Position numbers and translations under genes: made by a program. DNA of 64,000 nt from Planctomycetota bacterium (GTDB lineage: Bacteria; Planctomycetota; Phycisphaerae; Phycisphaerales; SM1A02), in the NCBI GenBank assembly GCA_003671025.1, contig QWPW01000018.1, positions 1 through 64,000 of the forward strand, in the 5' to 3' direction. Positions 88-12,156 of this stretch are shown here, piece after piece; positions within the stretch are counted from its first letter, which is position 1; every line of letters starts with the position of its first letter. Under the pieces are notes generated by a model, which worked only from the letters and a program-made list of their open reading frames with translations, made no database searches and was not told the origin of the DNA.

Positions 88-1356
88 CTACTGCTTCGAT
101 GCACTGCTGCTCGCGGCGGCGCTTCCTGCGACGAAGCCCGAGGCCCACGCCCATTGAAAGTTGAAGCCGCCGATGCGTCCGTCGACGTCGAGTATTTCGC
201 CCGCGAGATGGAGGCCTTGAGTGATGCGCGATTCCATGGTGTCGAGTTTGACCTCGGACAACGGGACGCCTCCCATCGTGACTTCGGCGTAGGTGAATCC
301 GCGATCGCCTTCGACGCACAGTGGCATTGCGCATGCGGCGCGTGTGAGTGCGCGTCGGTCGGCGCGTGTCACTTGACGCAGACTCTGCGCGGGATCAACG
401 CCCGCATGAAGACACAACGCGCGTGCTAAACGCTCGGGCAGAAACTCGCGCAAGAATGCGAGCGCGTTCACCGCGCGACTCGCGACCATCGCTGCGTCAA
501 GCGTTTCCTCGCGGTGCTGCGGAATGAAGTTCACGACGAGGTGCGCTTGTGGGTCATCAAGAAGCGCGTCGCGCCAGTAGCGACTCATGTCCAGTGGACA
601 GGGGCCAGAGAGACCGAAGTGCGTGCACAGCAGTGAGTCGGTGAACTCCTTGAGAATCTTCCCGCTGCCGCTGTGCAACACCAGCGTCGCATCAAGCGTC
701 AATCCCGAAAGCGCGCGCAGTGGATGGGCCGCGGGAAGAATCAGCGGAACGAGCGCAGGGAAAATGCGCTCGCTCACGCTGTGTCCGAGCGCACGTGCGA
801 ACTCGTATCCCGCGCCGTCGGAGCCAGATTTAGGCAGACTCTTGCCGCCGGTGGCGAGGATGAGTTTCTTCGCGCGCATTGATCCCCACTCGTCGCCCGT
901 CGCGATGAATGAGCCATCGACGTGGGTCACGCGATGCACTCGGCGCGGGTGAACGATCTCCACGCGCGCATCGTGCGCCGCCGCGAGCAACGCGTTCAAG
1001 ATGGTGCGCGCGTCGTCGGTGGTGGGAAAAAGTTTCCCTGTCTCTTCGCGTTTGAGTTCGACTCCGTACTGCGCGAAGAAGGCGATGGTGTGCGCGACCT
1101 CAAATTTACGGAGGACATTTTTGATCGCATGCGGCGTCGATCCCGCGTACGCCTTCTCATCGACGGCGTGATGAGTGACATTGCATCGACCTCCGCCCGC
1201 GACGAGAATCTTCGCGCCGATGGTGCGCGCGCCATCGAGCACGATGACGCGCGCTCCGCCACGAGCCGCATGAATTGCGGCGAACAGTCCCGCCGCGCCC
1301 GCGCCGATGACCAGCGTGTCGCACTCGTCAATCGTCGCGTGCGCGTGTGCACTCAT
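88..1356 (-). CDS. HI0933/BaiN-type FAD-dependent oxidoreductase
   Basis: A 422-residue flavoprotein of the HI0933/YhiN/BaiN family, whose members bind FAD through a Rossmann fold. An FAD-binding glycine motif GAGAAG is at residues 18-23, the family motif AGGGRCNVT at about 53-61, a second ATGGKSLP motif mid-protein, and a C-terminal GGFNFQWAWASG stretch that normally closes the FAD site. Length matches the family (about 400-430). It has no signal peptide, so it is cytoplasmic. Its start overlaps the stop of the upstream M14 peptidase by 4 bp, so it is probably the last gene of the operon that starts near 8 kb. The substrate is unknown; bile-acid reduction is known for one BaiN member only and should not be transferred here. 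Confidence 0.9.
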   Translation of the reverse strand: MSAHAHATIDECDTLVIGAGAAGLFAAIHAARGGARVIVLDGARTIGAKILVAGGGRCNVTHHAVDEKAYAGSTPHAIKNVLRKFEVAHTIAFFAQYGVELKREETGKLFPTTDDARTILNALLAAAHDARVEIVHPRRVHRVTHVDGSFIATGDEWGSMRAKKLILATGGKSLPKSGSDGAGYEFARALGHSVSERIFPALVPLILPAAHPLRALSGLTLDATLVLHSGSGKILKEFTDSLLCTHFGLSGPCPLDMSRYWRDALLDDPQAHLVVNFIPQHREETLDAAMVASRAVNALAFLREFLPERLARALCLHAGVDPAQSLRQVTRADRRALTRAACAMPLCVEGDRGFTYAEVTMGGVPLSEVKLDTMESRITQGLHLAGEILDVDGRIGGFNFQWAWASGFVAGSAAASSSASKQ

Positions 1357-3188
1357 GGCTGCGGCGATGACGGTGTTGCTGGCGTTGGCGTTTCATTCGC
1401 AGATACGGTCGCGCGCAAGATCACGCTCGAAGCGAGATCCGTCGCTTTTTCGGCAGCGAAACGCACGGCGATGGCATCGCCTTCGTTGCCTTGTGCGATG
1501 AAGCGCACGAACACCGAGCCGCGTGAAGGCACGCCCGACTCAAGCGTGACCGTTGTTGGCGTTTCGTGATCGGGATCGAACGCGCGATCGAAGCGATTGC
1601 GCGCGACTCCCGACACGAGAATCTTGGCGCTTGCTGCCGGCGTGAGTGTCACGCGATCAGGAAGTCCCACCTTCGCTTGTGCCGCGCGCACAGTGCGCGT
1701 TGGAATGAGCGCGTCGTTACGAATCTCTAGAGTGACTTCATAGAGGCCACCATCAAGCGCCTTCACCACCGTCGGTCCAAAAGACACGCGCGGCATTTCC
1801 GCTGCATGAAACAAGGTAAATGCGGCGTTGCGATGACACTCTTCTTCGAGCATGAACGATGGCGGAATGCGCGACGACCATTTGGTGTTGCCACCGACGA
1901 GCACCGCGCCGAGCGTTGGATGTTGTCGCTCGACTAATGGCGAACGCGTTTGACCGAAGAGCATGCGCTTGCGCCAGAGTTCGCTCTGCGCGGCATTGGG
2001 CGTCGTGCCATCTTGCATGATGCGTTTGTCGGTCCACAGTTCGTTGGTGAAACTCACGATGCCCAACGTTTCCGCAAGCCAGTTCACGAAGCCGCCATGC
2101 ACGGGATAAAGATCGGAGTGAATGACCATCGATCGATAGCCGGGAAGCATCTGCGCGCCGACATCGGCGATCGCGTCGTACACCGCGCGGTCGCCCACAT
2201 ACGCGTCTTCGCGCGTGGGCGTGCCTGGTCCACGCAGAATCATTCCGCCTGCATTGTGATAGGCCTGACCCGCGGCGATGTTGGGCTTGGTGAGCACGAA
2301 CTTGCCGACGGCTTCAGTCTCGGGGTAAGAAAACGGCCAATCGCCCGCGCCGTTTTGCACATGATCTGGTTGCCAACCCGCGGGCCAGTTGCGATTCATG
2401 TCGTAGCCGCCGGGGCCATCTTCATTGACCGAGCCGTCGCCGTCGTTGTCGAGTCCTTCGGAACCCGCGATGGACCAATCGCCGCGACGAATGCTGCCGT
2501 CGGCGCGCGGTTGCGCTGGGACCGATTCCATCTCGTTGGGATCAAGTTCGCTGCGGCGATGGGTGCCGTTGGGATCGCGTCGCCACATCAAACCAATTGA
2601 TCCGTCGCCGTCGAGATCATCGGGTCCATCTTCGTCGCACGCGCCATCACGATCGTCATCGGTCGGCTGCATGCCCGTGCGCGAAGTGCTGGAGTTGTTC
2701 TGTTGCGCAAACCACGTGGCGCGTCCATCGGGATTGACGCAGGGCACGAAGTAAAACGCGCATCGATCAACCAAGGAGGTGATGGCATCGATCTTGCCGT
2801 ATTGCTCGACGAGATACCACACGGTGTAGAGCACGGTCTCGGATGCTTGAATCTCGTTGCCGTGAATGTTGCCGTCGATGTACATCGCGGGTTTGTCGCT
2901 GTCGCTGCCCGTTTTGGGGTTGTTGAGCAACAACGCGAACATGACTCGTCCTTGCGAGCTGTGACCGAGCTCGACATAGGTGAGTAGTTGCGGATGTGCG
3001 GCCGCGAGCTCTTTACTCTGCGCAACCAGCGCATCGAAATCGCGGAAGTGATCGAAGCGCAATGTGCTCTTGGCATCGACGCGATCTTGCGCGAGCGTTG
3101 CGTGCGTCATCGCCAGTGATGGGGCCAACATGATTGCGCAACGAAGTAATGCGCACGCGCCGATGTTGAATGAGGACGAGTATTTCAT
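1353..3188 (-). CDS. Secreted M14-family zinc carboxypeptidase (intact active site)
   Basis: A 611-residue secreted peptidase. It begins with a signal peptide (about residues 1-33, ending near ATLAQ). The M14 zinc motif HxxE is present as HGNE at residues 109-112; the substrate-binding NR pair is in DMNRNWP; a third zinc histidine candidate is in GQAYHNAGG; and the catalytic glutamate is E383 in FTNELW. Two Asp/Gly-rich segments resembling calcium loops (DDDRDGACDEDGPDD, and one just before the DMNRNW motif) interrupt the domain. The C-terminal 150 residues look like a beta-sandwich. It overlaps its neighbours by 4 bp on both sides. The upstream gene is a paralogue sharing the same layout but not the catalytic residues. 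The M14 assignment is firm; the peptide substrate is unknown. Confidence 0.9.
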   Translation of the reverse strand: MKYSSSFNIGACALLRCAIMLAPSLAMTHATLAQDRVDAKSTLRFDHFRDFDALVAQSKELAAAHPQLLTYVELGHSSQGRVMFALLLNNPKTGSDSDKPAMYIDGNIHGNEIQASETVLYTVWYLVEQYGKIDAITSLVDRCAFYFVPCVNPDGRATWFAQQNNSSTSRTGMQPTDDDRDGACDEDGPDDLDGDGSIGLMWRRDPNGTHRRSELDPNEMESVPAQPRADGSIRRGDWSIAGSEGLDNDGDGSVNEDGPGGYDMNRNWPAGWQPDHVQNGAGDWPFSYPETEAVGKFVLTKPNIAAGQAYHNAGGMILRGPGTPTREDAYVGDRAVYDAIADVGAQMLPGYRSMVIHSDLYPVHGGFVNWLAETLGIVSFTNELWTDKRIMQDGTTPNAAQSELWRKRMLFGQTRSPLVERQHPTLGAVLVGGNTKWSSRIPPSFMLEEECHRNAAFTLFHAAEMPRVSFGPTVVKALDGGLYEVTLEIRNDALIPTRTVRAAQAKVGLPDRVTLTPAASAKILVSGVARNRFDRAFDPDHETPTTVTLESGVPSRGSVFVRFIAQGNEGDAIAVRFAAEKATDLASSVILRATVSANETPTPATPSSPQP

Positions 3189-4963
3189 CGCGAAGTCTCC
3201 TGCGAAAGTTGCGTGCTGCGCGTGATGGTGTCAAACGTTGGGCCAGAGACCGCGATGTCGAGTGCTCCGGTTGCGGGCATGCGCACGAGCCATGAGTACT
3301 CTTGCGACGCGCCCGGCGCGAGGCGTTCGATCTTGTTCACGGGTCGACCCGAGAGCACATCGCTCGGTGCAATAGCGGCGTTGGTTTCGTGATTGATTAG
3401 TCGCACCACCATTGGTGGGATCACTGAAGTGGTACGTCCCATCTCGGTGGTGGTGGCCATCGAGCCGATGTTGGTGACGCGCAGTTGCACCTTCGCCAAT
3501 CCGTTGGCAAGCGCGGTGATGCGCGGTTCACTCACTTCGATCGCGGGAGCTTTGGCGCACAGCGCGATGATGAACTTGGCAGTCGTGTCACTGAGCACGT
3601 TCGCTTGCGCCCATGTCGGAGAAACCCGAAAAAACGGCGCAAAACCGCCTATTTCGACGTCGCCCCAAATCGCGTGCTTGTGTGGCGCCCAGGGAATGAA
3701 TCCTTCGGAGCCGTAGAGTTTGTCGGAGACTTCGAGCCACGCAGCTTGCTCCGCGTCGCCAGTTTCCTTGGCCGGAGTCGGTGCGGGCGCGCCCTCTACG
3801 GCGACTGCTTCAACTTTGGGAACTTCGGGACGCGACCATCCGTTAGCGGCAACCGCAGCGATGCCGCGATGATCAGCAAGCCACAACACCAACGAACCCG
3901 CGAGGTCCCTCGTCTCCGACTTCTCCAACTTGGTCGAGTCCTTCCACAACTTCGCGAAGTCGCGATAGACCGCGTGATCTTCGGCGAGATAGACCATCGG
4001 CGTGCGACCGGTCGAGTCCTTGTCTTTGGTGTCGGGGAAATTCACCAACGTGTCGTGACGACCGAAGACCACCGCACTCACGATGTCGGGATGATCGCGC
4101 ACGAAACGCGCGATGCCCATCGATTCCGGTTCGCTCAGTGGGTACGGGCCGGCATCGATGGCGAACTCGGCCCATCGATGAGGAAAGTTGCGATCGAGAT
4201 CGGTTCCACCAATCGCATCTTCGCCGAGCTTTCCATCAAGGTCGTGGTCGATCGCTTCGATGGTGACTTCATGGGTGGCGCGTTCGCCTTTGTCTTTATT
4301 GGCGACGCGCAGGATGCGCGGATCGACTGCATCAATGAGATGGGTTGCCGTTTCGCCCGCGGGCGCAACGCGGCGCATGGTGACGCACTGACCCTCGCCG
4401 GTGAAGTCAAATGGTGGATCTTCGTCGAGCGCTCCATCGCGATCGTCGTCGACCTGTCGTGCGTTGGTGGCGCGCGGAGTTCCCTGCGCGATCGCCCACG
4501 CGCGCGCATCGGGATTTGCCTCGGGAATCGCGTAAATACGCATGGAATCAAGCAGCGCGGGATGATCACGCAGCACTTGAGAGACCGCGGCGCACACTTG
4601 TTCCGTCGACGCGAGATTCACGCCGTCCATGCCACCAACCAAGAGCAGCGCGGGAAGCTTCTTGCTGAAATCTTGATTGCCCAAGATGAGTGCGCCGATG
4701 GCACGACCTTCGCGCGAGACTGCGATGGGTGCGATTGATGAACGTCCAATCGCACCATTGGCGAGGTTGAGCAATCGATCACTCGCGGTGTCTGGTGAGG
4801 GATATCCCCGTGGTGCAAGCGGGCCTGGTCCAACAACCGTGGGTGCAGCTGTTGGAGTCGGCGTCGTCGCGGGCGGATCTGCAAGCAGCGAGCTACTGAG
4901 TGAGAGCGTCGATGCGAGCAACACCAACGAGCGATGTTGCGGCGCTTGATTCAATGTGGTCAT
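3185..4963 (-). CDS. Secreted M14 carboxypeptidase-like protein, catalytic residues lost
   Basis: About 592 residues from the ATG at 4963, which opens directly on a signal peptide (MTTLNQAPQHRSLVLLAS...LLADPP); an in-frame ATG at 5035 would add 24 residues and bury it. It is a paralogue of the downstream M14 peptidase: both share the DDDRDGA.DEDxP insert, the D(L/M)xRN(F/W)P motif and a WLAxxxGI..xxxxxxW segment. Aligned by eye, HGNE is replaced by DGVN (D113, N116), so both zinc ligands are gone, and the catalytic Glu is replaced by Asn (N374 in AANGW). The third zinc His is also not at its expected position. It is probably a non-catalytic binding or partner protein. Stop and start overlap the active paralogue by 4 bp, suggesting co-translation. 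Confidence 0.82.
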   Translation of the reverse strand: MTTLNQAPQHRSLVLLASTLSLSSSLLADPPATTPTPTAAPTVVGPGPLAPRGYPSPDTASDRLLNLANGAIGRSSIAPIAVSREGRAIGALILGNQDFSKKLPALLLVGGMDGVNLASTEQVCAAVSQVLRDHPALLDSMRIYAIPEANPDARAWAIAQGTPRATNARQVDDDRDGALDEDPPFDFTGEGQCVTMRRVAPAGETATHLIDAVDPRILRVANKDKGERATHEVTIEAIDHDLDGKLGEDAIGGTDLDRNFPHRWAEFAIDAGPYPLSEPESMGIARFVRDHPDIVSAVVFGRHDTLVNFPDTKDKDSTGRTPMVYLAEDHAVYRDFAKLWKDSTKLEKSETRDLAGSLVLWLADHRGIAAVAANGWSRPEVPKVEAVAVEGAPAPTPAKETGDAEQAAWLEVSDKLYGSEGFIPWAPHKHAIWGDVEIGGFAPFFRVSPTWAQANVLSDTTAKFIIALCAKAPAIEVSEPRITALANGLAKVQLRVTNIGSMATTTEMGRTTSVIPPMVVRLINHETNAAIAPSDVLSGRPVNKIERLAPGASQEYSWLVRMPATGALDIAVSGPTFDTITRSTQLSQETSR

Positions 4964-5080
4964 GGTGATCGTGCGGAGGCTGCGCGCGAAGAGATCGATG
5001 GAGACGTCGAGCATGCGCCGAGCATAACGCAGCATGCGTGTCGGAAGGTACGGCGCAGCACGCGCGTCTGTTAGTGCAGC

Positions 5081-5971
5081 TCAGAGTTCGCGATCGACGG
5101 TCGCGCCCTCGAGCATGTAGAGGCCGACGAGCCAATTCTCCACGAGGTAGGGCTCGACCCTGAACACGCCGCTCACTGCGCCAAAGTTGAGCGTGTGTTT
5201 CTTCCAACCCTTCATCGATATGCCGAGCTTCACTTCCACCGCGTCGTAGGGCGTTGGCGGAACTCCGATGCAACAGCCGTCCCATTGATTGAGCATGACC
5301 AGACACTCACTCGCGGTGGGGGCGATGAGCGGAAAGGCCAAATACCCCGAGATTCGCACGTGTTTTCCCGAAAGGAACGCGATGCGCGCGGGAAGTTTTT
5401 TCTCGGCCAAGCGTGGCATGTATGTCTCTTGCGCGCTCGAAAGAAACTCCCAAGTGATTTCGTAAGGGGTCTCTTTGCTGCCTTCGCCGGTGATGGTCCA
5501 CGCGTCATCGATGGAGATGCTTCCATCGGCGAGACGGACGAATTTGCTGGGAATGACTTGCGCTTGTGCAATCTCAGGAATCACTGGCGTGAACTCACCA
5601 GGCGTGTTGCTGGTGGCCTCAATTGTGTTGTCGCTCGTCGACGCAGCAGGGGTGGTGGTGTCGATCGCAACGGCCGTAGGTTCAGCGATTGCGACTACAG
5701 GCGTCACGGGCTCTGGTGCTGTTTCGATTGCCGGCGCGACGTCGATCGTCGCGGTGGTCGCCGTCGCGTGATCGGCGTTGGTGCTTGGTTTCGCCGCAGA
5801 ATCCTGAGTGTTCGCAGGTGACGTCGTGTCTTGAACGAGCGAGTCTCCGCCTAGCGCGTCGTCAATCATCGCATCTTGCGAGAGCGTCGACGCCGACTCA
5901 TGCGTTGGTTGCATCAACACAATCAAGCCGCCCAAGAGCAGCAACGCGACGATGGTCCAAACGATTTTCAT
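5081..5971 (-). CDS. Membrane-anchored DUF3299-like protein
   Basis: A 296-residue protein with one N-terminal membrane segment (MKIVWTIVALLLLGGLIVLM), then about 140 residues of Ala/Thr/Pro/Val-rich linker, then a C-terminal domain (about 165-296) exported to the periplasm. The domain has the DUF3299 style: a strand GKHVRISGYLAFPL, then a loop with two cysteines (C233, C234) in DGCCIGVPPTPYDAVEV, matching the family's CIHVPPPPPNQ-type loop except that the usual His is Gly. DUF3299 proteins often sit beside a LolD-like ATPase and FtsX-like permease, sometimes in zinc-linked operons such as Vibrio Zrg (from memory, not checked). Here it lies 35 bp downstream of just such a permease. Role inferred: extracytoplasmic partner of the transporter. 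Confidence 0.65.
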   Translation of the reverse strand: MKIVWTIVALLLLGGLIVLMQPTHESASTLSQDAMIDDALGGDSLVQDTTSPANTQDSAAKPSTNADHATATTATIDVAPAIETAPEPVTPVVAIAEPTAVAIDTTTPAASTSDNTIEATSNTPGEFTPVIPEIAQAQVIPSKFVRLADGSISIDDAWTITGEGSKETPYEITWEFLSSAQETYMPRLAEKKLPARIAFLSGKHVRISGYLAFPLIAPTASECLVMLNQWDGCCIGVPPTPYDAVEVKLGISMKGWKKHTLNFGAVSGVFRVEPYLVENWLVGLYMLEGATVDREL

Positions 5972-6006
5972 GATGCAACTCCATCAACCAATGAATCGAA
6001 TTCCTA

Positions 6007-7287
6007 TTAACCGAGTGGACGCAGATTCCGCGCGACCGAAGTGCGGTAGGCCAAGATTGAAGGCACGAGACCCGCGAGTGCGGCCAACACTGTGGTTGCC
6101 ATTGCTACAAAAACAGCAGAGCGCGCATCAAGCACAGGCACGATCACGAGACCATGCGCCACGCGCATCCACTGCGTCGCAAACGCGAGCACCATGAGCG
6201 CGACGAGCACGCCGCTCGCAGAACCTGCCAATCCGATCATCGTGCTTTCGGTGAGCACCAACCAGAAGATGCGCGCACGAGTCGCGCCCAACACGCGCAG
6301 AATCGCCACTTGACGGCGGCGCTCCGACATCGAGTTCACCATCGACAAGAGAATCGCGACTGCCGAGGAAACCACGGTCGCGCCCGCGATGGCGATGAAC
6401 AGCACGTCGATGCTGGCGACGATGTCAAACAGTCGTTGCACTTCGTTGGCGGGCAACGCGACTGTGAGCGAGCCATCGCGACGCAGCCGATCGTATTGCG
6501 CGACGAGAACGGGTGACGCGCTCATGTTGTCGCGCGAAGGAACGCGCATGAGCACGCCGGTGACGACACGATCCGCCGCGGTGAGATCCTTCACAGTGAC
6601 ATGACGCGTCGTGCCCTCGCGCTCGTAACGATCGTGTGCGTGAAGCAGCCAACTCGATTCGAGATCGGTGAAACACGCGCGATCATGCGGCGCGCCAGTT
6701 GCTTCCAAGATGCCTACGACAGTGAATTCGTATTCGCGATGTTCATGCGCGTGCTCGTCAACACCTTCGCGTGATTTGCCCGATCCATGGGTGAGCACGA
6801 GTTTGGCGCCGAGACGAATTCCGGTTTCGCGCGCGACCGCACTTCCGAGCACGATTTCAAAGTTCGCGGCGAACGGCTTGCCTTCTGCGAAGACCCACGG
6901 TTCGCCTGCCACCGGTTGGAACTTGGCGAAGAAATCAGCGTTGGTTGCGACCACGGGAAAGCTGCGATAGCTGTCGCCGATTGCGGTGGGCACAAACATC
7001 GACCAAGGAAACGAATCGCGCAGCTCGTTGAGTTTCGCTTCGTCGATGGGAGCCTTGGGCGGGTTCGCGTAAAAAATTCCGTTGAGCACCGAGACCAACG
7101 GGCTTCCATCTTTGGAGACCAAGAGATGTGCGTTGCCGGTTCCGCGCGTGAAGGCGCGTTCGCCCGCTTCACGCAACGAGAGAATCGCCAAGAGCAATCC
7201 CGCACTCACGGCCACCAGCACGATCACCACGATGGTGGAGAAGAGGCGCAGGCGCAACGAGCGAAGCACGATGAGGAGATCGCTCAT
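6007..7287 (-). CDS. FtsX/MacB-type ABC transporter permease with His-rich loop
   Basis: A 426-residue permease of the type VII (MacB/LolC/FtsX) fold: one N-terminal membrane helix (about 12-38), a large extracytoplasmic domain (about 40-280), then three C-terminal helices. The hallmark sequence MSERRRQVAILRVLGATR lies between helices 2 and 3. The extracytoplasmic domain carries EHAHEHREYEF (H179, H181, H183), followed by VVGILEATGAPHDRACFTD and LLHAHDRYE, a His-rich patch that could bind a transition metal. Such transporters usually move lipids, lipoproteins or peptides, or act as mechanotransmitters. It overlaps the ATPase gene by 4 bp and is followed by the DUF3299-like gene, so the three probably form one complex. 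A metal-related role is an inference. Confidence 0.87.
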   Translation of the reverse strand: MSDLLIVLRSLRLRLFSTIVVIVLVAVSAGLLLAILSLREAGERAFTRGTGNAHLLVSKDGSPLVSVLNGIFYANPPKAPIDEAKLNELRDSFPWSMFVPTAIGDSYRSFPVVATNADFFAKFQPVAGEPWVFAEGKPFAANFEIVLGSAVARETGIRLGAKLVLTHGSGKSREGVDEHAHEHREYEFTVVGILEATGAPHDRACFTDLESSWLLHAHDRYEREGTTRHVTVKDLTAADRVVTGVLMRVPSRDNMSASPVLVAQYDRLRRDGSLTVALPANEVQRLFDIVASIDVLFIAIAGATVVSSAVAILLSMVNSMSERRRQVAILRVLGATRARIFWLVLTESTMIGLAGSASGVLVALMVLAFATQWMRVAHGLVIVPVLDARSAVFVAMATTVLAALAGLVPSILAYRTSVARNLRPLG

Positions 7288-8009
7288 GATGTTGCTCCGC
7301 TCATGGCTGCGCTTGAGGCGTGCAGCGCATCAAGTCGCTCGCGTCGCGCGAAGTGCGCTTCAAGCGAAGGATCATGTGAAACCACCAGCAGCGCGGCGCC
7401 TTGCTCGCGACAAGCATCACGCAGGATGCGCACCGCGATGACCGCGTTGTCAGGATCAAGCGATGCCGTCGGTTCATCCGCGAGGACGAGCGTGGGGCGA
7501 CAGGCCAATGCGCGCGCGATGGCGACGCGTTGTTGTTGTCCCACTGAGAGTTCTTCGGCGCGCGCGTCGAGTCGTTCGATGCCCAGCGAGCGCAGCAGCG
7601 CATCGGCACGCGCGTGCCATTCTTGTTTGGGCATGTCGCTCATCAACATTGCGACCAACACATTTTCGCGCGCACTGAAGCCTTGCAACAAGTTGAATGT
7701 TTGAAAGACCATTCCCACGGAACGCCCGCGAAAGTGATCGCGTGCCGCGCCGCGCAGTGCGTGCATGTCTTGTCCGCCTACGGTGATGGATCCTGCGCCG
7801 GGATCGATCAGACCTGCGATCAATTGCAACAACGTGCTCTTGCCGCAGCCGGATTTACCCATGAGCAGCATTTCTTCGCCGCGCGCAAGTTGCAGCGCGT
7901 TGAGTCGCAGTTCGAAGCCCGTTCCGTAGCGAAACGTGAGCTCGCGAATGTTCAGTGCTAACGGGGTGCTGCTGCCTGTGCCACTGGAATTGTCCGACGC
8001 GTTAGCCAT
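7284..8009 (-). CDS. LolD/MacB-type ABC transporter ATPase
   Basis: A 241-residue nucleotide-binding subunit: Walker A GKSGCGKS at residues 51-58, Q-loop MVFQTFNLLQGFSARENV, signature LSVGQQQR near 154-161, Walker B LVLADEPTASLD shortly after, and the switch His in LLVVSHDPSLEAHF. These are the features of the LolD/MacB/FtsE subfamily. It pairs with the FtsX-type permease directly downstream (4 bp overlap, ATGA). No Shine-Dalgarno sequence is evident before its ATG. A 40-codon reading frame ends 8 bp inside this gene and could couple its translation. Energises the adjacent permease; substrate unknown. Confidence 0.9.
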   Translation of the reverse strand: MANASDNSSGTGSSTPLALNIRELTFRYGTGFELRLNALQLARGEEMLLMGKSGCGKSTLLQLIAGLIDPGAGSITVGGQDMHALRGAARDHFRGRSVGMVFQTFNLLQGFSARENVLVAMLMSDMPKQEWHARADALLRSLGIERLDARAEELSVGQQQRVAIARALACRPTLVLADEPTASLDPDNAVIAVRILRDACREQGAALLVVSHDPSLEAHFARRERLDALHASSAAMSGATS

Positions 8010-9449: not shown

Positions 9450-9493
9450 AGTTTCGTTGCGCGTTGGTGCGTCTCTTCGCGCAGTGCATGCAA

Positions 9494-9835
9494 TCACTCC
9501 CAGCCGTTGGAACCGAACTCGGGGCGATCATCGTCGCGCGGTTCGTCCTGCTTGTTGCCTCGTTCACGCTCACGGTTGGACTGTTCGATCATGCGGCGCA
9601 AGTACGCGTTTTCGCGGCGAGTCGCTTCGAGGTCGAAGACGAGGTACTTCACGCTGAGGCGCAAGTAGTCGAGCGCGTCTTGCAATTCAGTGACTGAGTT
9701 TTGCACGCGCTTGCGGCGAATATCAGCGGTTTCGCTGACGGCTTCAGTCGGGGCTTCGATGGTCTGAGTCGCAGGCAGTTCGCGGATGCGCTCAAGGATT
9801 TGGTTCATTTTGTCTTGGAAGCTAGTTTCATCCAT
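9494..9835 (-). CDS. Small coiled-coil hypothetical protein
   Basis: 113 residues from the ATG at 9835, chosen because a strong ribosome binding site (AAGAGGAGA) lies 7-8 bases upstream; the frame stays open to 9904 but that extension has no such site. The protein is highly charged. A heptad-like helix runs from about residue 30 to 90 (RRKRVQNSVTELQDALDYLR, then LEATRRENAYLRRMIEQ), followed by a disordered Arg/Asp tail. No signal peptide or membrane segment. Probably a cytoplasmic coiled-coil protein; no family recognised. Confidence 0.72.
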   Translation of the reverse strand: MDETSFQDKMNQILERIRELPATQTIEAPTEAVSETADIRRKRVQNSVTELQDALDYLRLSVKYLVFDLEATRRENAYLRRMIEQSNRERERGNKQDEPRDDDRPEFGSNGWE

Positions 9836-10048
9836 GGCGATTCTCCTCTTGAATTGTGGGGTCGGCGAGACTTCACGCGGTGCGCGTGGCTCTCGATGAA
9901 TCACCTATCGCAACGTCTATGCCCAGTTTGAAAGTGGAACCGCGCGAGTGGCGATGCGTTGCAGCGCCGCGATATTCTTGACCGCGTCGGTATAGGTGTT
10001 GTGCGTGGAGGTTGATCTAGAGCGCGTGTTGCAACGCTGCCCCAATCG

Positions 10049-10711
10049 CTAGCGCGCCTTGTCGAATTTTTGCAACATGCGCATCGCTCCGCGGGGAGCA
10101 TCGATCAGAATGGACTCGTAGGGCACGCGGCGACGGCGGAAGTCGTTGATCAAGCGATGCAATTCGGTATCACGCTCGCGCGCCCAGTCTTTGAAGAACG
10201 CCTCGAGCTCGACGCGGGTGAAACGAGAGAGCGGATCATCAAGTCCACTCTGCGCCACGGCCCAATCGATCAGACCCGCGCCGCTTCCGCCGGCCAATCC
10301 CGAACCAGCACTGGCGCTTGATCCAAGTCCGCCCTCGAAGCGATACAGGCCGAGCAACAACTTGAGTCGTCGCTCTTGAGTGAGAAACGGATCGGTGATA
10401 TCGGGGTGCAACTCCGCCATCGCGGCTTCGGGTTTCTTGGAACTGATTTGTCCAAGCCATCCACCGTCGGACGCGTTCTCGCGCGCGGCGAAGGTGTGTT
10501 CGGCGGCGGCGTTGCCTTCGATGATCTCAAGATCCGCAACGCTGGCGAGCAACGTCTTGAGCCCCGCGTTGGCGAACTTGATCCACAAGCGTTGGTCGCG
10601 TCCGTTGGGGCGCGTGATGGTTTCGGCGCGCGTGACGCTACCGACTCCCCATTCGGGCCGCGCGCGGTGACGAACTTGCATTCCGTTGTTGAACATGACT
10701 GGAGTAAGCAT
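10049..10711 (-). CDS. DUF3553-like protein
   Basis: About 220 residues from the ATG at 10711; another ATG at 10696 is equally possible because neither has a clear ribosome binding site. The frame is open further upstream, but that part is Arg/Ser-rich and runs through a repeat tract, so I exclude it. Residues about 9-55 match the DUF3553 pattern: a start VRHRARPEWGVGSVT and then a strand pair ending WIKFANAGLKTLL, as in small beta-barrel (SH3/CarD-like) domains. The remainder is helical, with a Gly/Ser-rich linker (GGLGSSASAGSGLAGGSGAG) and a charged helical C-terminus. It could be nucleic-acid related, but that is inferred. Past its stop the same frame stays open for another 43 codons. Confidence 0.6.
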   Translation of the reverse strand: MLTPVMFNNGMQVRHRARPEWGVGSVTRAETITRPNGRDQRLWIKFANAGLKTLLASVADLEIIEGNAAAEHTFAARENASDGGWLGQISSKKPEAAMAELHPDITDPFLTQERRLKLLLGLYRFEGGLGSSASAGSGLAGGSGAGLIDWAVAQSGLDDPLSRFTRVELEAFFKDWARERDTELHRLINDFRRRRVPYESILIDAPRGAMRMLQKFDKAR

Positions 10712-10792
10712 GAGGTGAAATCGCGGAAGCAGCTGAATAGAGTTTCGCCGAAGTCTGGCACGAGTGATTCGAGCAAACGCCGAAGTACGCGT

Positions 10793-10832
10793 GAACGTCA
10801 GCGAACGACAGCGAACGTCAGCGAACGACAGC
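10793..10832. repeat. Four tandem 10-bp units in alternating order
   Basis: GAACGTCAGC, GAACGACAGC, GAACGTCAGC, GAACGACAGC run head to tail, so two versions differing by one base alternate (a 20-bp unit repeated twice). About 80 bp upstream of the DUF3553-like gene start. May bind a regulator or be a simple slippage product. Confidence 0.75.
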
Positions 10833-11271
10833 GATTGCAGCGAAGACACGCAATCAAGTCGCAGGTCGTTGGTGGCATCGCGTCCGCGGACGCAAGAACG
10901 CGCCAGTTCCTTCGTGGACGATCTCGCAATGTGGCGCTCTCGCAACCGATTTCGACTCCGCGAACGAGCGTCGCGAGTGAAGAAATCCAGCCCTCGAGAG
11001 ACAACTGAAATGCCTAAAAAACGCTAGAAACACAGTACCTTTGAGGATGCCGCGCATGAGCGACATTCGTGAGACAAACATCGTGTTTGTCTTGACGAGG
11101 GCCCAAAGTTTGTGTCGTTCAACTTAGGACTTCGACATTTGATGCCAGAGCTAAGTAGACCAGTCGAGTGTAGCAGGGCATCGGTCAGGTGCAAATCGAA
11201 ACTCATCCGATGAGCAATGTCACGATGAAATATTGGCGCGGCCTGAGTCGCTTCGTTCCTAGTCCGTACGC
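10833..11271. other. Long non-coding spacer with a hairpin
   Basis: This is the spacer between the divergent DUF3553-like gene and the YmdB-like gene. No reading frame here has convincing composition. The clearest structure is a 9-bp inverted repeat AGACAAACA / TGTTTGTCT with a 3-base loop at 11072-11092, which may be an operator-like dyad or RNA hairpin; no T-run follows it. Promoters for both flanking genes should lie here, but I cannot identify -35/-10 boxes with confidence. Confidence 0.45.
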
Positions 11272-12156
11272 ATGTCGGAAGCCATCGGTTTGGCAAACCT
11301 CAAGATTGAGTACCGTAACGAAATGGATCAGCCCAACGGCACTGTGCGCATCGCGTTTCTCGGTGACATCAATGGCGCGGCGGGGCGCATGGCACTTGAT
11401 CAACAGTTGCCCATCTTGCGCGAGCGCTACCGACCCGATCGCATCATCGCTAACGCGGAGAATGCACGCAACGGATCCGGTCTCACCCCTGAGTTGTACG
11501 AACAGTTTCGACGCATGGGCATTGATGCGTGCACGCTTGGAGATCATGCGTTTCGCGATCCCAAGATCTTGCCGTTGCTTGATGATCCGAGCAAAGCGGT
11601 GTCGCGGCCGGCCAATCTTTCGGCGCGCACACCGGGAAAGCGCGTCATTCGCATTCCCGCCGATGCGCGCTGTCCGCGCGACATCTTTGTGTTCACGCTT
11701 CTCGGTCGCATTCATGTGAGTTCGATCCAGGCCAACGATCCTTTCGAATGCGCGGATCAGTTGCTCGCGGCGATGCCTGAACTCAATCCCATTGTCCTCG
11801 TCGAAGTCCACATGGAAGTGACCAGCGAAAAAGCAGCGGTGGCGCATTACCTCGATGGACGCGTCGCCGCGGTGTTGGGCACGCACACCCATGTTCCAAC
11901 CGCGGATGAGCGAATTCTCCGCGGCGGCACCGCGTTTCAAACCGACGTGGGCATGACTGGTCCGCACGATTCAGTGATTGGTCGTCGCACCGAAGCGGTG
12001 CTCAAGCACATGACCACGGGCGTGCATGTTGCGTTTGATATGGGTTCAGGTGGCGAAGCCGTGCAAGGCGCGTTGGTCGAGATTGATCTCGCGCGCGGCA
12101 TTGCGCGATCGATCGAGCGCATCAATTTGCCTGCACGCGTGCCGCAGCGTTCGTGA
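11272..12156 (+). CDS. YmdB-family metallophosphoesterase
   Basis: A 294-residue calcineurin-like phosphoesterase of the YmdB family (cyclic-nucleotide phosphodiesterase fold, dinuclear metal site). Family motifs in order: FLGDINGAAGR (D32), ANAENARNG (E63, N64), LGDHAFRD (91-92), VEVHMEVTSEK (H180), GTHTHVPTADERIL (H205, H207) and FQTDVGMTG. The metal-ligand Asn in the usual GNH motif is Asp here (D91), and the usual DFHAEATSEK is EVHMEVTSEK. A start at the in-frame ATG at 11326 (MDQPNGTVRIAF) would fit homologues better; neither start has a strong ribosome binding site. Stands alone, convergent with the hydantoinase gene. Confidence 0.85.
   Translation: MSEAIGLANLKIEYRNEMDQPNGTVRIAFLGDINGAAGRMALDQQLPILRERYRPDRIIANAENARNGSGLTPELYEQFRRMGIDACTLGDHAFRDPKILPLLDDPSKAVSRPANLSARTPGKRVIRIPADARCPRDIFVFTLLGRIHVSSIQANDPFECADQLLAAMPELNPIVLVEVHMEVTSEKAAVAHYLDGRVAAVLGTHTHVPTADERILRGGTAFQTDVGMTGPHDSVIGRRTEAVLKHMTTGVHVAFDMGSGGEAVQGALVEIDLARGIARSIERINLPARVPQRS

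Follow-up and report, generated by a model that had tools for sequence, protein, structure and literature searches.

Members of the M14 carboxypeptidase family that have lost activity are, in Tables 1 and 2 of a metallopeptidase review (PMC11266112), all eukaryotic: AEBP1, CPXM1, CPXM2, domain III of carboxypeptidase D and Ecm14. By comparison, we describe here a bacterial pair, in which a gene for a catalytically dead M14-like protein (A) is followed by one for an M14 protein with a complete residue set (B). The pair lies in a stretch of 64,000 nt (the window, positions 1 to 64,000 of contig QWPW01000018.1, assembly GCA_003671025.1) from a planctomycete of the order Phycisphaerales (SM1A02). 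Carboxypeptidase D resembles it in holding active domains I and II and an inactive domain III together in one protein. However, that protein is animal and membrane-bound, with three domains on one chain, the dead domain last and His69 kept, whereas A and B are bacterial and encoded by two genes, of which the dead one comes first, and both chains carry paired acidic loops. AEBP1, CPXM1, CPXM2 and Ecm14 have also lost catalytic or binding residues but keep His69 and Glu72 (CPA numbering; Table 2 of PMC11266112 gives H69, E72, H196, R127, R145 and E270); A retains neither of these two and lacks His196 and Glu270 as well. The cited tables do not describe these four as encoded beside an active partner.

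Dead and live paralogues are also paired in other peptidase families. The M16B pairs, namely mitochondrial processing peptidase, SPH2681/SPH2682, TTHA1264/TTHA1265 and AlbF/AlbE, are metallopeptidases of two genes and two subunits, one HxxEH-bearing and one inactive, and single-chain forms such as FusC and PqqL exist (cited sections of PMC12731061 and PMC11266112). Bacterial homologues of mitochondrial processing peptidase (family M16) are encoded in two-gene operons (PMC11266112). The M16B pairs differ from A-B in peptidase family, in the HxxEH motif and in forming a clamshell from two halves. The Csp proteases of Clostridia have active CspB and inactive CspA and CspC in one locus, with CspBA fused in C. 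difficile (PMC6199464, cited section); they differ in being subtilisins (S8) with a role in spore germination. The M16B and Csp pairs are precedents and functional parallels for A-B. A further parallel is trypanosome AdoMetDC, an unrelated eukaryotic enzyme that a dead paralogue, prozyme, activates (PMC5201418, cited section). No bacterial M14 pseudoenzyme pair was found among the titles and abstract openings listed in searches of open-licence PMC papers. M14 exopeptidases bound via cohesin-dockerin are described for freshwater planctomycetes (PMC6461901, cited section), with no link to A-B established.

Active-site residues and fold of A and B

A preliminary description, made from the letters of the window, had reported two M14-like genes overlapping by 4 bp, and its coordinates, strand and overlap were exact (Table 1). 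Matches to PF00246 (Peptidase_M14) place both proteins in the M14 fold, at E 1.3e-12 and 48.4 bits for A (cut-off 21.6) and at E 1.3e-43 and 150.2 bits for B. This was the sole Pfam match up to E 0.1; M16 domains were absent from both, neither belongs to M16B, and NCBIfam held no family covering either. The proteins share 26% identity over 453 aligned aa (BLASTP, E 2e-24), and each has a hydrophobic export-type N-terminal segment (best 11-residue hydropathy 1.99 in A and 2.15 in B). Structure prediction, which had been suggested as a check, gave confident M14 models for A (mean pLDDT 91.7, pTM 0.90) and B (90.0 and 0.89). The A model superposed on carboxypeptidase T (Z 30.1, 283 aligned residues, root mean square deviation 2.7), and the best 50 Foldseek rows listed for B were M14 carboxypeptidases (top E 9.2e-20).

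Residue equivalences were taken from BLASTP and from a joint MAFFT alignment of 87 A rows and 90 B rows, which agree; three fragmentary A rows and two short B rows were excluded. B has the full set: H109, E112 and H311 for zinc, E383 for catalysis and R170, N265, R266 and Y361 for substrate. The HGNE motif, NR pair and catalytic Glu attributed to it earlier are thus all present, and by these sequence criteria B is an M14 carboxypeptidase. In A, D113 aligns with B His109, N116 with Glu112, G301 with His311 and N374 with Glu383. The substitutions at two zinc ligands and the catalytic Glu had been aligned by eye and stand; the third zinc His and the Tyr248 and Arg127 equivalents, which that description did not mention, are lost too. 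The Arg127 position (B R170) holds A165, the Asn144-Arg145 position D257-R258 and the Tyr248 position (B Y361) R352. The zinc ligands and catalytic Glu270 are missing from A and its Arg127/Asn144-Arg145/Tyr248 set is incomplete, and by residue criteria A is an M14-fold protein and not an M14 peptidase. At these positions of A and B we assume the roles of CPA Asn144, Tyr248 and Ile255. B position 368, at Ile255, is mostly Val (63/92), and this would weakly suggest a fit to hydrophobic C-terminal substrate residues.

The claim that A keeps the Arg of the substrate site holds for the Arg145 equivalent, R258 (52 of 87 A rows), and fails for a second arginine, the Arg127 equivalent. Its calcium-loop inserts are indeed kept, both D-x-D-x-D...E-D loops being present in 84-87 of the 87 A rows at six positions tested; presumably these acidic DxDxDG-type loops of A and B have a calcium role. 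In the models, the substituted positions of A lie directly after predicted strands 105-109, 294-300 and 369-373, and the active residues of B at the ends of or just past the matching strands 101-106, 304-313 and 378-384. We also looked for other His or Glu residues occupying the metal site of A, the outcome named beforehand as fatal to the claim. BLASTP and MAFFT gave the same alignment with no conserved candidate and no conserved His at the site; the near-invariant His430 of A is common to B (His423).

Conservation was examined in 147 de-duplicated A rows (rows gapped in any of six columns left out) and 145 B rows (restricted to those free of gaps and X across eight columns), with the divergent proteins of L259-L298 outside both sets. 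No equivalent of His109, Glu112, His311 or Glu383 is present in 142 of the 147 A rows; five retain one, and none retains two or more. In B, all eight functional residues (H, E, R, N, R, H, Y, E) are kept in 143/145, the two non-canonical rows being a lone relative outside the pair (L144) and Sabulibacter ruber (L214). Conservation of the Asp and Asn replacements themselves was found in part. Position 113 is acidic (Asp/Glu) in 137/147 A rows, but position 116 is most often His (75/147) and position 374 is variable, though never Glu (0/147). Gly301 is found in 134/147, Asp304 in 136/147 and His303 in 82/147.

A site so conserved in its own way (acidic 113, Gly301, Asp304) is what would be seen if A were a co-expressed peptide- or wall-binding protein using the former cleft without contacting B. 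We consider this quite unlikely, as the co-occurrence in 97/97 genomes and the fusion in two species described below exceed the needs of shared regulation. The frequencies of H116, H303 and D304 could instead reflect a rebuilt metal site, or other catalysis, built on a D/E113, H116, H303, D304 cluster. However, D/E113, H116 and H303 occur jointly in only 34/147 rows, neither His is present in 28/147, and the window's A has N116, which makes such a site highly improbable.

Outside these sets, some divergent A proteins keep more of the zinc motif: HxxE in L270, the first His in the f51 proteins and the second-ligand Glu in L274. In the stretches inspected, none of these divergent proteins has the third His or the catalytic Glu. 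L270 (G361, 1174-4560, + strand), a paralogue of A in a 1129-aa open frame, may by its residues be an intermediate. All 11 unpaired relatives taken for comparison (L287-L296, L298) retain HxxE. An HP-x-x-G-x-V-E-I-G-G hairpin, present in 151/172 A rows and 166/166 B rows, was considered as a pair-specific interface and rejected, because 10 of the 11 unpaired relatives carry it too. It is also found in L302 (Halomontanus rarus plasmid NZ_CP119797.1, 5956-7590, + strand), an unpaired and distantly related haloarchaeal M14 gene with a HARE motif.

Occurrence, order and inheritance of the pair

A followed by B on one strand recurs throughout Planctomycetota, as searches of relatives, the class, the phylum and named genomes revealed. 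An A profile and a B profile were used, under identical settings, to search 391 planctomycete genomes each. B matches with E < 1e-150 were called strong, and A and B were called neighbouring when their matches shared a contig and strand with no more than 1.3 kb between them (gaps arise where a profile matches only in part). A is present in every one of the 97 genomes with a strong B, and in 94 of them the two are neighbouring, so that the adjacent pair whose search had been proposed was found. In seven of the 97 (G347, G368, G384, G412, G356, G455, G485) A came to light only once the locus had been fetched. In two (G429, G408) A and B fall on separate contigs, which may reflect breaks in the assembly. 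Conserved linkage of a dead and an active paralogue, as expected of a pseudoenzyme-enzyme heterodimer, is thus observed, and fusion adds to it.

Among 80 named loci, the pair was also found outside Planctomycetota: in KSB1-labelled contigs (L203, L204), Calditrichota (L221), Verrucomicrobia (L212), contigs labelled Cyclobacteriaceae or other Bacteroidota (L210, L219, L220, L222, L214) and a Gammaproteobacteria-labelled metagenome-assembled genome (L208). Metagenome contigs bear their depositors' labels, some of which look wrong (L150, L154, L196); most non-planctomycete loci are metagenome assemblies. No A protein from non-planctomycete-labelled loci keeps the catalytic set. A Gemmatimonadota contig (L216) carries A without B and ends there. 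Viral contigs gave 55 pattern matches with no relative of A or B among them, and the one plasmid record matched was the distant haloarchaeal gene, L302.

In all, 175 loci comprised 161 simple pairs, or 138 after removal of identical copies, and 14 others. The latter were a fusion (L074), two with A broken (L067, L129), three with the genes separated (L142/L145/L206, from G234), five at contig ends (L146, L148, L191, L216, L225), one insert (L147), one lone relative (L144) and one A without B (L228). The start of B overlaps the stop of A by exactly 4 nt in 94 of the 138 pairs, and is followed by a hydrophobic segment in 93 of the 94. An A end that permits such an overlap (A, G or T before TGA) is present in 101/138, and chance alone would put B in that frame roughly a third of the time.

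The pair had been called fused, which is not literally so in the window's genome, where A and B are separate overlapping genes. A true fusion does exist elsewhere. In G030 (L074) A and B form one open frame of 1255 aa, and in a second species of that genus, G651 (L300), the C-terminal part of A and B share one frame of 796 aa, open to the contig end, with 64% identity to G030 across the junction. The best 11-residue hydropathy of the two linkers is 0.28 and 0.45, as against 2.0-2.2 for the window's signal segments, and there is therefore no signal peptide between the fused halves. Linkers of such low hydropathy argue for a real tether rather than a misassembly.

A is under purifying selection, with a median dN/dS (non-synonymous to synonymous substitution) of 0.22 against 0.15 in B (55 within-genus pairs each), values that are rough because dS is high. 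In a tree of 100 proteins, B forms one group (SH-aLRT 100) and A with the f54 offshoots another (99); unpaired relatives that carry HxxE fall in between. Its root was not inferred, and long branches (L285_A, L266_C, L274_A) and the outgroup are unsure. Moreover, the A and B trees of 38 loci with both proteins have 21 of 35 splits in common (shuffled mean 0.2, maximum 2), and A-B distances correlate at 0.75, a value reached in 0/999 permutations. The simplest reading of these trees would be a loss of activity that preceded the spread of the pair, with the two genes travelling together.

Decay of a duplicate might be suspected of A from the missing zinc and catalytic residues and from three copies broken in assemblies (L067, L129, L286). 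The purifying selection, the conserved fold and loops and the single grouping of A across labelled phyla speak against it, and we regard decay as ruled out, to near certainty, by dN/dS, the tree grouping and the mirrored splits.

Synteny inertia as the sole cause of the pairing was likewise rejected. The window's ABC, FtsX, DUF3299-like and HI0933-like genes each occur in 52-58 of the 175 loci. Any of the four is present in 26/40 loci of f1, the window's own family, but in 1/25 of f2 and 0/29 of seven other families, where A-B persists; among the named loci the figure is 36/80. A closer inspection of 14 loci, including KSB1-, Cyclobacteriaceae-, Verrucomicrobia- and Calditrichota-labelled ones, found the window's neighbours in none (0/14), although such absences may partly reflect contig edges because some loci are short. 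The conserved unit is the A-B pair, kept where neighbouring genes differ.

A probable secreted carboxypeptidase of two subunits

The data favour A and B being two subunits of one secreted carboxypeptidase in which A is a permanent non-catalytic partner, a reading to which we give a probability of about 0.72. An obligate heterodimer with one dead subunit is its most likely form. The idea of a conserved pseudoenzyme-enzyme pair, put forward in the preliminary description in preference to random decay, gains from residue loss in A, purifying selection and 97/97 co-occurrence, and further from conserved order and overlap, retention amid differing neighbours, mirrored trees and fusion in two species. 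B has the zinc site, the residues for holding a carboxylate and the catalytic Glu, and because these are present it should trim amino acids off the C-termini of peptides. A retains the M14 fold, the acidic loops, which probably bind calcium, and a beta-rich C-terminal region resembling that of B, but is unable to bind a catalytic zinc in the M14 fashion or to activate water. With A encoded first, the start of B overlapping its stop and export-type N-termini on both, A would bind B permanently and stabilise it, help to hold substrate, or both. Contact between the two, the effect on activity and its direction (activator or brake), and the substrate class are what we infer.

As to direction, A may be a dedicated inhibitor, a zymogen-like brake that silences B until a ligand or proteolysis releases it. 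The genetic evidence is the same as for a stabilising partner: A is encoded first, and the dead-then-live order and the tethered fusion fit a brake as well as an activator. Nothing observed indicates inhibition, and Pfam, beyond which no search for a propeptide or inhibitor segment was made, gave only PF00246; we therefore think a brake unlikely.

Several observations weigh against the two-subunit carboxypeptidase. The case for an A-B complex comes from genes and single-chain predictions. The mirrored trees show common descent only, because adjacent co-inherited genes mirror each other without contact. The protein tree is a quick one, and dS is near saturation (median 1.48 for A and 1.37 for B). 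The fusion is known from one genus. A and B are truly separated in G610, some 10 kb apart on opposite strands, and, outside the 97 genomes, lie on different contigs in G234 and are parted by an insert of ~2.4 kb in G026. On the 5.9-kb Ignavibacteria-labelled contig L228, A stands without B. Broken copies of A occur in L067 (G005; two frames) and in L129 (G298) and L286 (G639), where a stop separates two ORFs (open reading frames); in L183 it is B that is fragmented. Lastly, the non-planctomycete loci include a single named strain, Sabulibacter ruber (L214), and its B lacks two of the eight residues.

Some of these loci merit a separate remark. The broken copies of A and B may be assembly errors or real losses. 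G026 had been taken for a B without A, until a broader profile picked up the end of A on the contig edge, ~2.4 kb upstream. The S. ruber B (NZ_JAFFID010000001, 9467-11359, + strand) carries Gln in place of the zinc-binding Glu112 and Leu in place of Tyr361, and both members may therefore be inactive there.

Gene neighbourhood and related loci

In the window, positions 88-8009 of the minus strand hold a compact cluster in the order ABC ATPase, FtsX permease, DUF3299-like protein, A, B and HI0933-like flavoprotein (Table 1). Further 4-nt overlaps lie at 7284-7287 and 1353-1356.

Table 1. Positions in the window of the A-B pair, its residues and the adjoining genes
Feature	Position	Strand	Remarks
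Gene A	4963-3185	-	592 aa; secreted (predicted), catalytically dead M14-like protein
Gene B	3188-1353	-	611 aa; secreted (predicted) M14 carboxypeptidase, residue set complete
ATGA overlap, A stop/B start	3185..3188	-	4 nt; same overlap in 94/138 de-duplicated pairs
A D113-G-V-N116	4616..4627	-	in place of HxxE zinc motif; BLASTP, joint alignment
A acidic loop 1, residues 172-182	4418..4450	-	calcium-type; joint alignment
A acidic loop 2, residues 239-249	4217..4249	-	calcium-type; joint alignment
A Arg258	4190..4192	-	substrate Arg145 equivalent, kept here; in 52/87 A rows (joint alignment)
A Gly301	4061..4063	-	third zinc ligand position (His196 of CPA); BLASTP, joint alignment
A Asn374	3842..3844	-	catalytic Glu position (Glu270 of CPA); BLASTP, joint alignment
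B H109-G-N-E112	2853..2864	-	zinc motif; alignment
B Asn265-Arg266	2391..2396	-	carboxylate-binding pair (Asn144-Arg145 of CPA); alignment
B His311	2256..2258	-	third zinc ligand; alignment
B Glu383	2040..2042	-	catalytic Glu; alignment
ABC ATPase	8009-7284	-	neighbour of A-B
FtsX permease	7287-6007	-	neighbour of A-B
DUF3299-like protein	5971-5081	-	neighbour of A-B; weak (15.9 bits, below cut-off 22)
HI0933-like flavoprotein	1356-88	-	overlaps end of B by four bases

A second kind of locus was seen in the planctomycete lineage f54 (L259-L268, e.g. L263:2694-6136, + strand), where an A-like dead M14 gene is followed by a degenerate M14-like ORF. This arrangement is present in 10 of 11 fetched loci (not L269), and the second ORF scores 74-155 bits with the A profile. 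HxxE is absent from these second-locus proteins in the stretches inspected; L261 has H-P-G-G-E. Both members of the six such loci placed in the tree fall inside the A group, and their sequences make dead-dead pairs possible.

A broader account, on which our judgement is evenly divided, is that several phyla share an obligate two-subunit M14 carboxypeptidase, one subunit of which would have lost catalysis once, early in the pair's history, and since then been kept and inherited along with its live partner; the second locus of f54, with two dead M14 proteins, would look as if the scaffold had become a purely non-catalytic binding module. With the pair in several labelled phyla, natural fusions and apparent intermediates, A-B may offer a simple secreted system for studying how a dead paralogue functions and why it is retained.

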